Source of the DNA: Fluviicola sp. XM-24bin1
Lineage (GTDB): Bacteria > Bacteroidota > Bacteroidia > Flavobacteriales_D > Crocinitomicaceae
Direction: 5' to 3'
DNA: 64,000 nucleotides
Assembly (NCBI GenBank): GCA_003149635.1
Contig: QCWI01000002.1
Location: 87,188 to 151,187, forward strand
The first letter of the stretch is position 1. Each line of letters opens with the position of its first letter. A program made the translations under genes and the position numbers. Shown here piece by piece: positions 27,597 through 28,951 of the stretch. The notes beneath the pieces were generated by a model. That model saw nothing but the letters and a program-made list of their open reading frames with translations. It made no database searches and had not been told where the DNA came from.

Positions 27597-27626
27597 TTTG
27601 CTATTTTAATAAAATGGCTATCTTTG
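27597..27626 (+). promoter_or_regulatory. Promoter of tRNA-Leu
   Basis: TTTG (27597-27600), 18-base spacer, TATCTTTG (27619-27626): a full match to the Bacteroidetes consensus. It ends 22 bases before the tRNA. Confidence 0.8.
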
Positions 27627-27648
27627 CCCTCGCTCTATCAGAGAAAAT

Positions 27649-27730
27649 GCCTGGGTGGCGGAACTGGTAGACGCGCTGGATTCAAAATCCAGTTCCTTCG
27701 GGAGTGAGGGTTCGATTCCCTCCCCAGGTA
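27649..27730 (+). tRNA. tRNA-Leu (anticodon CAA)
   Basis: The acceptor stem GCCTGGG pairs with CCCAGGT, the anticodon stem CTGGA/TCCAG encloses the loop TTCAAAA (anticodon CAA), there is a long variable arm (TTCCTTCGGGAG), and the T-arm GAGGG-TTCGATT-CCCTC is present. The discriminator A is at 27730 and CA follows. It is driven by the promoter at 27597. The overlapping long frame from 27655 is only an artefact of reading the tRNA. Confidence 0.95.
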
Positions 27731-27731
27731 C

Positions 27732-27784
27732 AAAAACCAGTGTGAGTAAGAGAGCGAGAGCGATATTACGAACACTGGTTTTTT
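27732..27784 (+). terminator. Terminator of tRNA-Leu
   Basis: AAAAACCAGTGT (27732-27743) pairs with ACACTGGTTTTT (27772 onward), followed by T. The right arm and T-run reappear at 28466-28483, after the second GIY-YIG unit. Confidence 0.75.
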
Positions 27785-27804
27785 CTTTTCAACTATTCAC
27801 ACCG

Positions 27805-28056
27805 ATGTTCTACGTTTATATCCTGTACAGTCAAGCGAAAGATCGATTCTATGTTGGGCAAACCAATAATCTTGAAAATAGAATTGAACGGCATAATAAC
27901 GGGTATGTGAAATCGACAAAAGCTTACCGACCATGGATGGTGGCTTACACTGAAACATTTGAAGAAAGAGCTGCCGCTGTGCGCAGAGAAACTCAGATAA
28001 AAGGGTGGAAGTCTAAATCAAAACTAAAAGAACTGGTAGAAGCGTCCCGATTATAA
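27805..28056 (+). CDS. Small GIY-YIG endonuclease-fold protein
   Basis: The 83-residue protein is a single GIY-YIG domain of the UPF0213/YhbQ kind. MFYVYILYSQAKDRFYVGQT holds the 'YVYIL' and 'YVGQT' halves of the motif, NLENRIERHNNG supplies the conserved Arg and His, and ETFEERAAAVRRETQIKGW carries the catalytic Glu region. The family cleaves nucleic acids with one metal ion. I use ATG 27805; a longer frame would include translated tRNA. The stop codon lies inside an 18-bp palindrome (28045-28062) that is joined directly to a copy of the tRNA-Leu 3' part. This layout recurs with the next, broken gene. Confidence 0.9.
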   Translation: MFYVYILYSQAKDRFYVGQTNNLENRIERHNNGYVKSTKAYRPWMVAYTETFEERAAAVRRETQIKGWKSKSKLKELVEASRL

Positions 28057-28062
28057 TCGGGA
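28045..28062. repeat. Perfect 18-bp palindrome at end of GIY-YIG unit 1
   Basis: TCCCGATTATAATCGGGA, containing the stop codon of the GIY-YIG gene, directly abuts the duplicated tRNA tail at 28063. Confidence 0.9.
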
Positions 28063-28105
28063 TTCCTTCGGGAGTGAGGGTTCGATTCCCTCCCCAGGTA
28101 CAAAA
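28063..28105 (+). repeat. Duplicated tRNA-Leu 3' part (43 bp, exact)
   Basis: This stretch is identical to 27693-27735: variable arm, T-arm, 3' acceptor strand, discriminator and the following CAAAA. It lacks the 5' half, so it is not a tRNA gene. Such a direct repeat of a tRNA end is typical of an insertion that used the tRNA as its target. Confidence 0.95.
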
Positions 28106-28134
28106 CCTCTTCGAAATTCGGAGAGGTTTTTTTT
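28102..28134 (+). terminator. Terminator after the duplicated tRNA tail
   Basis: AAAACCTCT (28102-28110) pairs with AGAGGTTTT (28122-28130), followed by further T. Its sequence differs from the tRNA-Leu terminator. Confidence 0.8.
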
Positions 28135-28149
28135 GTATCTTCAGGTGTA

Positions 28150-28442
28150 ATGGCCACTGTTTATATTATTTATTCTAGGATAATTAACAGGTTCTACATT
28201 GGAAGTTGAACCTTGAGGAAAGATTGCTTCAGCATTATGAGGGATACTTTGAGGGTAGTTATACTTCCAAAACTAAGGACTGGACTTTGCACTTCTCAAT
28301 TGGAGACTTAAAATATCAGAAAACTAGAAAAATAGAAAATCACATTAAACGAATGAAAAGCAGAAGGTACATTGAAAATCTGAAACGCTATCCGGAAATT
28401 TCCTGCAAGCTTATTCAGAAATATTCGAGTTCGTTCCGATAG
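28150..28442 (+). pseudogene. Second GIY-YIG gene, frameshifted
   Basis: ATG 28150 reads MATVYIIYSRIINRFYIGS and then meets TGA at 28207. Loss of one base there explains it: the next frame continues NLEERLLQHYEGYFEGSYTS to KYSSSFR, ending at TAG 28440-28442. Rejoined it is about 97 residues with GIY-YIG motifs (VYIIYS, FYIGS) and a basic C-terminal helix. Protein identity with the first unit is low, so it is not a simple tandem copy. As in the first unit, the stop lies within an 18-bp palindrome. Confidence 0.8.
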
Positions 28443-28483
28443 CTATCGGAACCCTCCCCAGGTACGAACACTGGTTTTTTCTT
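28434..28483. repeat. Palindrome 2 plus third tRNA tail remnant
   Basis: TTCCGATAGCTATCGGAA (28434-28451) is a perfect palindrome of the same length as palindrome 1. It is followed at once by CCCTCCCCAGGTAC (28452-28465), the last 14 bases around the tRNA-Leu 3' end, and then by GAACACTGGTTTTTTCTT (28466-28483), identical to 27770-27787 in the tRNA-Leu terminator. Confidence 0.85.
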
Positions 28484-28562
28484 CTACACTCACACTCTAA
28501 CTCAATCTGCGACATTTTCTAAGCTTTTTGACTAACTTATATGGTGAAGTAACAACTACACT

Positions 28563-28813: not shown

Positions 28814-28951
28814 CTCAATTTCGAATTAACTTTATCGTATGGAATTGGGGACAATGACGACAAAGCATTCCGAAATAACTTTCGAAAATATTCGGGTGTT
28901 TCTCCGAAGGCCTATTGACAGAAGTATAATAGAGAGATGACGATGGTGTGA
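28814..28951 (+). pseudogene. AraC-type regulator C-terminal relic
   Basis: One frame reads GDNDDKAFRNNFRKYSGVSP followed by KAY, TGA, QKYNREMTMV and a stop. This is the end of an AraC-type helix-turn-helix domain ('F.r.FrKy.G.sP..YR..yn'), with the Arg codon of 'YRQKY' changed to TGA. Only the last 45 residues remain. Confidence 0.65.

Follow-up and report, generated by a model that had tools for sequence, protein, structure and literature searches.

The GIY-YIG units beside tRNA-Leu(CAA)

The window analysed here, a stretch of 64,000 nucleotides from a contig of Fluviicola sp. XM-24bin1, carries a single tRNA called by ARAGORN, tRNA-Leu(CAA), and behind it two short units (A and B), each with a gene for a small GIY-YIG nuclease. 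An earlier note on this DNA had described the order tRNA 3' part, terminator, GIY-YIG gene and again tRNA 3' sequence, occurring twice in succession, and we verified the coordinates of this layout, together with the exact 43-bp tail (27693-27735 and 28063-28105) and the 14-bp remnant (28452-28465) that is joined to a duplicate of the terminator right arm (28463-28490, 89% identical to 27767-27794). Both genes have their stop codons inside perfect palindromes, as the note had held, and these are two of the four perfect palindromes of at least 16 bp in the window. The equal length of 18 bp that had been given for them was not upheld, since palindrome B measures 20 bp (28433-28452). Palindrome A occupies the place of the anticodon arm and palindrome B lies in the T-loop. 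Two GIY-YIG genes are indeed present, the second of which (28150-28442) is frameshifted.

Since the D-arm side of the tRNA is copied in the final codons of the unit A gene, palindrome A has tRNA sequence on both sides and replaces the anticodon arm. Palindrome B, as read from the sequence, lies between a T-loop-like TTCG (28430-28433) and the tRNA 3' end. The leader of the window (27733-27801) aligns with the unoccupied tRNA-Leu site of the congeneric genome G025 (alignment score 28, compared with a shuffle maximum of 13.5), and positions 28466-28495 repeat the right half of the terminator, so the host terminator region flanks the unit pair on both sides. Besides the GIY-YIG frames, units A and B contain no open reading frame (ORF) longer than 54 aa and so no integrase-sized frame, which agrees with the claim of the note that the unit has no integrase or transposase. 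In the window genome, one small GIY-YIG gene exceeds the Pfam threshold, and unit B was detected only with its own profile. The 32-bp terminator T_B stands between the two units in the window, yet adjoins the tRNA in G018. The word CCGATNNNNATCGG occurs three times, compared with 0.04 expected, and five places inspected among its other sites in the window genome gave no sign of a unit.

We consider it probable, at roughly 0.6, that such a unit is a minimal mobile element composed of one single-domain GIY-YIG gene and one palindrome and dedicated to tRNA genes. The features on which this reading is built are collected in Table 1; here and below, genomes and loci carry our own G and L numbers.

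Table 1 Features of the tRNA-Leu(CAA) locus, in window positions.
Feature	Position	Strand	Evidence or remark
Intact tRNA-Leu(CAA), presumed target and host gene	27649-27731	+	ARAGORN
tRNA 3' part, left copy of the exact 43-bp direct repeat	27693-27735	+	
Host terminator and leader, ending a few nt before the GIY-YIG start codon	27732-27801	+	Homology to the unoccupied G025 tRNA-Leu site
Unit A GIY-YIG nuclease gene, 83 aa plus stop (TAA 28054-28056)	27805-28056	+	PF01541, E=8.2e-19
5' piece of the displaced tRNA copy (D-arm side), forming the last GIY-YIG codons, GAACTGGTAGAAGCG	28030-28044	+	14/15 identical to tRNA 27661-27675
Palindrome A, TCCCGATTATAATCGGGA, at the anticodon-arm place	28045-28062	+	Contains the unit A stop
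Displaced tRNA 3' part, tail copy of unit A	28063-28105	+	100% over 43 bp
Second terminator, T_B	28102-28133	+	32 bp identical to the tRNA-adjoining terminator of G018
Unit B GIY-YIG gene, other subfamily, frameshifted remnant (stop TAG 28440-28442)	28150-28442	+	Profile A2, E=3.7e-28
Palindrome B, GTTCCGATAGCTATCGGAAC, 20 bp, in the T-loop of the displaced copy	28433-28452	+	
Tail copy of the tRNA 3' end, 14 bp	28452-28465	+	
Host terminator, right half, with the host sequence behind it	28466-28495	+	Copy of 27770-27802

Occurrence at other tRNA genes

Small GIY-YIG ORFs (at most 260 aa, with a Y.G motif) were collected from 329 matches, and 261 records at 215 loci were kept after sequences already seen in another locus had been removed; tandem copies within a locus and the pieces of a broken gene each count as records. 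Using exact matches of at least 12 nt to a tRNA of the same locus, from 90 nt before to 260 nt after the stop codon, we found a partial tRNA copy around the stop in 122 of the 261 records (105 loci), counting L183, which has an entire second tRNA-Gly copy 172 nt beyond its stop. These copies belong to 22 kinds of tRNA by anticodon, 21 named and one unnamed. The minimal GIY-YIG unit linked to tRNA genes, which the note had proposed, is thus a layout found at many other tRNAs, and the search it had suggested for tRNA-part duplications behind GIY-YIG genes elsewhere gave a positive answer.

A same-strand tRNA ends within 200 bp upstream of 114 of the 261 records. In the genome-contig sample, a tRNA on the same strand within 200 bp upstream was present at 48 of 74 loci, compared with 22 of 3650 control positions taken from the same loci; because similarity to proteins linked to tRNAs was the basis of most samples, such shares are not population frequencies. 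In a Pfam sample from relatives, tRNA linkage was found, among the matches listed, for none of 22 UPF0213-like genes and for 20 of 50 others.

Forty genome-contig loci have a tRNA copy, 29 of them labelled Bacteroidota and two without a phylum, with single cases in Cloacimonadota, Chloroflexota, Balneolota, Chlorobiota, Fidelibacterota, Methylomirabilota, Poribacteria, Giovannoniibacteriota and Pseudomonadota. The Pseudomonadota case (L171, CP034120.1, labelled Glaciecola amylolytica) is similar to copies that Bacteroidota have at tRNA-Val. Horizontal transfer into Gammaproteobacteria was considered for it and dropped, because its promoter and terminator look like those of Bacteroidota and the record is perhaps misnamed. 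As for carriage on plasmids or phages, the candidates were nine plasmid records, all below 60% identity, and one viral contig.

A group I intron in the tRNA was also considered and rejected: the split match that had suggested it in G017 (L094) is a run of N, and Rfam at gathering score finds only tRNA in L001, L074 and L089. In L094 (1200-1510), tRNA-Leu(CAA) is split by the run of N into halves that overlap by 25 bp, and this assembly gap may hide a unit.

The break point and the junction palindrome

Among 96 distinct junctions with a usable 3' segment, inverted-repeat arms of at least 6 bp occur at 73, and at 66 the palindrome is significant (p<=0.05) when compared with random segments of the same locus. 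The commonest arms are TCCCGAT/ATCGGGA; TCCGCC/GGCGGA recur at several tRNA-Met loci, and ATGGCGAG/CTCGCCAT are found at three T-loop junctions. The variable arm, where the note had placed the junction, is not its sole place: of 91 junctions with a position, 22 lie in the T-loop and 69 elsewhere, 56 of the latter falling 8-16 nt after the anticodon start.

Displaced copies were examined behind an upstream tRNA (n=108), matches being accepted as far as 110 nt beyond the stop and any mismatch being counted as a break. In none of the 108 are the anticodon region and the T-loop both unbroken. The T-loop is intact and the anticodon region broken or absent in 52, the reverse holds in one, and neither is intact in 55. 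An intact tRNA stands beside the unit in all loci counted, as the test requires one. The gene starts just behind the tRNA terminator, and its 3' end enters a host-like tRNA copy that a palindrome breaks at the anticodon arm or the T-loop.

C-terminal residues of many GIY-YIG proteins are encoded by the displaced tRNA copy, for example, in L255, L214 and L058 (...VGSEHPD, ...AQLVRVPQLR), and tRNA-encoded C-termini would appear as odd conserved tails in protein databases.

Origin of the duplicated sequence

We compared the sequence after the tail with that after the intact tRNA at 73 loci with a tRNA at most 160 bp upstream, accepting homology that exceeded all of 50 shuffles. The sequence is repeated at 47 loci. 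Sixteen of these repeats continue into a further GIY-YIG copy or remnant, that is, an array unit, and 31 fade. Of the fading repeats, 21 are colinear, beginning at the tRNA end. They break off 0-41 nt (median 5) short of the start codon, and 12 of them come within 5 nt of it. The colinear direct repeats measure about 38-137 bp (median 58; one ends at the contig end), and many units are flanked by a host direct repeat, made up of the tRNA 3' part and the terminator, of about 40-140 bp.

The host origin of the tRNA pieces was assessed at 75 junctions with arms of at least 6 bp, of which 62 could be compared within anticodon groups of three or more. The tail is closer to the host's own tRNA than to the same-anticodon tRNA of other hosts in 61 of the 62, with one tie and none worse. 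For the 5' pieces, the host's own tRNA is the better match in 47 cases and the worse in 9, with 6 ties (n=62). The note had supposed that an incoming unit imports its own tRNA 3' part; to judge from these sequences, import is disfavoured, both by the host-like tails and by the host repeat after the tail, and a 58-bp host repeat at an occupied site described below points the same way, as does the homology of the window's leader to the unoccupied G025 site.

The same data bear on homing, in which the enzyme would cut an unoccupied tRNA gene and repair from an occupied donor would bring the donor's tRNA 3' part and terminator. Homing would account for the tRNA-adjoining terminator of G018, which differs from that after the tail and equals T_B over 32 bp, and for the 26 of 73 loci without terminator homology, and it recalls the amplification by the phage enzyme SegB, which, in the available part of PMC13096335, depends on homologous recombination. 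It is opposed by the host-like tails, by the terminators repeated at 47 of the 73 loci and by the variable-arm letters of G018, which are its own in both its tRNA and its tail, and we regard it as unlikely.

Occupied and empty sites in related species

The tRNA-Leu region was matched in 29 of the 34 genomes of the window's genus, and 26 sites were readable, including that of G003, which ends 131 bp after the tRNA. At tRNA-Leu(CAA), a GIY-YIG gene is present at 6 of the 26 sites, lying within 900 bp of the tRNA in G000 (the window genome), G018, G027, G013 and G008; the contig of G024 ends inside one. G018 has unit A with palindrome TCCCGATCAGAATCGGGA, and its tail bears the variable-arm letters of G018 itself, as does its tRNA. 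Unit B, its palindrome lying in the T-loop, is present in both G008 and G013, the former of which contains additional gene-less palindrome-plus-tail copies.

At the tRNA-Phe of the same genus (30 loci), a GIY-YIG gene occurs in G029 and G009 and in broken form in G030, and gene-less hairpin-plus-tail copies occur in G004, G032, G022, G013 and G025. In the genus of G286, where tRNA-Phe was matched in 79 of 81 genomes searched and 30 loci were read, five loci have the gene, one has a gene-less tail, 23 have neither and one ends 23 nt after the tRNA. The occupied and empty sites that the note had suggested seeking in relatives are thus both found, between related species rather than between strains.

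The clearest such pair, L418 (occupied) and L413 (empty) from two species, has a common flank directly behind the terminator. Specifically, L418 equals L413 plus a stretch running from one nt before the GIY-YIG start codon to the palindrome and a 58-bp repeat of host sequence, to which the tRNA contributes 18 nt and the terminator 40 nt. That the two loci represent one site is supported by words that they have in common further downstream, shifted by 342, 342 and 291 nt. In L412, L419, L067, L070 and L188, only the first 23-40 nt of the GIY-YIG gene are left, at an empty or downstream position; as far as their sequence goes, these short gene-start leftovers suggest recurrent deletions with similar end points.

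The ends of the unit also call to mind target-primed RNA copying, in which the GIY-YIG mRNA would be copied into a nicked tRNA gene by a trans-acting reverse transcriptase, from near the start codon to the palindrome hairpin, giving long target duplications. Penelope retroelements contain GIY-YIG nucleases, and the unit extends from close to the start codon as far as a hairpin and has direct repeats of about 40-140 bp. The unit itself, to which the search was confined, contains no reverse transcriptase, however, and the fragments left over come from the 5' end of the gene rather than from its 3' end, which makes this route very unlikely in our judgement.

Arrays, selection and the protein

Units stack in tandem, as the note had claimed, in arrays of up to ten. 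Ten near-identical units of 457 bp lie at tRNA-Met in G166 (L266), and four full units and one truncated unit of 379 bp lie at its tRNA-Asn (L265). G223 (L267) has eight diverged units with tRNA-Met-like tails, the last of them truncated, with no intact tRNA in the stretch examined. Upstream of the tRNA-Asn, L265 contains gene-less repeats of the tRNA 5' half plus palindrome. A mirror arrangement, with the 5' half duplicated and the intact tRNA at the right end, is found in L066, L213 and L170.

Arrays of near-identical units would also arise if nothing here were mobile, the tRNA and a resident GIY-YIG gene being duplicated in tandem with spare copies decaying, and the palindromes being unrelated repeats of the REP (repetitive extragenic palindrome) type. 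The host-like duplicates and the losses with truncated gene starts fit this explanation as well. It fails to account for the same layout at 21 named anticodon kinds in several phyla, for the palindrome at the break point in 73 of 96 junctions and for empty sites with an uninterrupted junction of terminator and flank, and we find it quite unlikely.

The enzyme is kept by selection. The ratio of nonsynonymous to synonymous substitution rates (dN/dS) is 0.07-0.40 among the G223 tandem copies and 0.08 between unit A of the window and that of G018, where dS is near saturation, and these low values place the GIY-YIG protein under purifying selection. On a tree of 51 GIY-YIG proteins, the tRNA isotype changes 19 times, compared with 33.3 times when shuffled (0 of 200 shuffles as low), a result inflated by near-copies from Flavobacterium.

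Residues Y5, Y16, G18, R26, H30 and E62 are invariant in 31 GIY-YIG sequences, the conserved residues of this domain having a catalytic role, and the unit A protein matches the GIY-YIG catalytic domain (PF01541). Its AlphaFold model (mean predicted local distance difference test score 95) is a single domain with a C-terminal helix at residues 71-82. The nearest solved relatives by sequence are 1zg2 (E=6e-14), 1ywl and SLX1 chains, and in a fold search with the model 1zg2 was the only match at E<=0.001, I-TevI being more distant. By sequence and model, the closest relatives of the protein would be UPF0213 and the structure-specific nuclease Slx1, which are similar to it in sequence and fold; the UPF0213-like genes differ in their lack of tRNA linkage (0 of 22 among the matches listed). 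By this relatedness, the unit protein may cleave DNA in a structure-specific manner, at flaps, junctions or hairpins.

Tight linkage to tRNA genes and purifying selection could equally mark a protein that acts on tRNA molecules, as a toxin, in defence or in processing, with the broken tRNA copy in its mRNA as a regulator. The many tRNA kinds, the stacking and the empty sites better fit a DNA element, however, and the nearest relatives of known function, Slx1, cut branched DNA according to the titles of the structure chains. We consider such a role highly improbable.

Proposed mechanism and comparison with known systems

The mobile unit is best read as working like phage SegB, in a single-domain and palindrome-tagged form, with presumed cleavage and transposition. 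The enzyme would nick or cut tRNA-gene DNA at hairpin-forming arms, and repair by way of staggered breaks or the sister chromatid would insert the cassette and duplicate the stretch between the two breaks, the host duplication leaving one intact tRNA. The palindrome would be the terminal recognition site of the unit and would prevent the displaced copy from serving either as a tRNA or as a target. With each further round at the intact tRNA, older units would move downstream, and recombination between tail repeats could expand, shrink or delete the arrays.

Several points weigh against the mobile unit. Cleavage, excision and transfer are all inferred, none having been observed. The sequence after the tail shows no homology at 26 of the 73 loci, and 23 of the 96 junctions have no palindrome by the inverted-repeat test. 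The 5' piece is host-like as well, which makes it less than obvious that gene and palindrome were inserted as a single block. The two terminators of G018 differ, and the one adjoining the tRNA is foreign-looking, as import predicts. Two of eight empty tRNA-Phe sites inspected in the genus of G286 retain the first 23-25 nt of the gene, and with such truncated gene starts some absences are losses. The flank beside the L418/L413 insert looks repetitive in that genus, and arrays of near-identical units may be plain unequal crossing-over. The sampling by similarity and the inflated isotype result, both given above, count on the same side.

According to the available part of PMC13096335, SegB adjoins tRNA genes, its cleavage peaks lie within tRNA genes, and it drives a tandem amplification of tRNA-Tyr plus segB that depends on homologous recombination; microhomology is described between the 5' end of the tRNA and the 3' end of segB, and the SegB motif is RAWTSGAAC. 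On the other strand, by our own reading, this motif would correspond to the T-loop pattern GTTCSAWTY, which is present in the window tRNA (27710-27718) and in tail A (28080-28088) and absent from tail B. In the window as a whole, the SegB-like motif showed no enrichment (16 compared with 10.8 expected).

As far as SegB is described there, both systems have a GIY-YIG gene beside tRNA genes and tandem growth of tRNA and nuclease gene. Sites with and without the gene, a further feature of free-standing homing endonucleases of this type, occur here between related species. Genes of the SegB type belong to T-even phages, whereas the present ones lie on bacterial chromosomes, at 21 named anticodon kinds, and their product of about 83 aa has a single domain. 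The SegB protein is larger, and homing endonucleases of its type have a separate C-terminal DNA-binding part, which has no counterpart in the 83-aa one-domain protein. Neither the palindrome-broken tRNA copy nor the host-derived duplication is described in the available part of PMC13096335.

A literature search found no title or abstract start describing the arrangement; its scope was open access, with subscription journals and preprints mostly outside, and an earlier description is possible. In tRNA islands with a tyrosine integrase, as here, the insert is bordered by a direct repeat of the tRNA 3' part, and an intact tRNA is kept. The present units differ from such islands in that they have no integrase-sized frame, that a palindrome separates insert from tail, and that the tail and often the terminator are host-like duplications.

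Dispersed palindromes

Among 60 relatives, which have 0-21 copies each, the palindrome TCCCGATNNNNATCGGGA is present in 22, and a reversed control pattern occurs in none. We read 60 places with 61 distinct palindromes in eight genomes that contain several, and the palindrome lies in the loop of a longer hairpin (p<=0.05) in 29 of 42 cases from the window's genus and in 0 of 19 from two other genomes. Many of these palindrome-bearing hairpins look terminator-like, with a T-run beside the stem when read by eye. At loci L356-L395 (G028, G013, G022, G008 and G009), TCCCGATNNNNATCGGGA stands in the loops of longer hairpins, as if the bare palindrome entered hairpin tips.

Genomes of the window's genus with a strong unit-B match (E<1e-25; G014 and G020, at E about 1e-12, were counted as without) all have at least one palindrome (6/6), compared with 7 of 28 others (Fisher p=0.001, kinship ignored), and the palindrome of the unit itself may be among those counted.

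REP palindromes carry a GTAG or CGTC tetranucleotide at one end, as given in the available part of PMC3733652. The dispersed palindromes resemble the system of REPs and RAYT (REP-associated tyrosine transposase) in being short, in their dispersed copies and in having a candidate partner nuclease gene. They differ in the absence of a constant GTAG or CGTC tag, GTAG lying within 6 nt of 1 of the 61 dispersed palindromes and CGTC of 10, and in a partner that would be a GIY-YIG nuclease, not a Y1 transposase. No Y1_Tnp match at E<=0.001 was found in G000, G022 or G013, which have 2, 15 and 8 palindromes, and Y1 transposases are not associated with palindromes in the window's genus (Mann-Whitney p=0.48). 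With no constant tag and no Y1_Tnp match, the candidate that these palindromes are REPs of a RAYT is disfavoured, and the missing Y1 partner also tells against the unrelated REP-type repeats on which the explanation without mobility relies.

We put forward with reserve, as a possible if doubtful extension, that the units form a categorically new class, in which a lone Slx1-like GIY-YIG nuclease and its palindrome would move between hairpins, the full unit entering tRNA arms and the palindrome by itself entering terminator-like loops. With its long, tRNA-restoring duplications, this class would be a GIY-YIG counterpart of RAYT/REP in Bacteroidota and several other phyla.

If the mobile unit is real, the tRNA genes of Bacteroidota would be a standing target of a selfish nuclease that needs neither a transposase nor an integrase nor a reverse transcriptase gene of its own. 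This would explain together the small GIY-YIG genes that adjoin tRNAs, the tRNA-coded tails of GIY-YIG proteins, the broken tRNA copies and the palindromes in hairpin loops. The unit would, in addition, provide a small nuclease that is easy to test, its target and its immune product both being predicted, and it would link bacterial chromosomes to the tRNA-cutting phage enzyme SegB.

Neighbouring genes in the window

The neighbours on the left are genes for a TraB/gumN-type protein and an amidohydrolase, and those on the right encode a DUF6607 protein and a protein with a Por secretion tail. Between 28543 and 28930, a three-frame reading suggests a decayed gene, which near 28880-28915 has the end FRKYSGVSPKAY, presumably of the AraC family.

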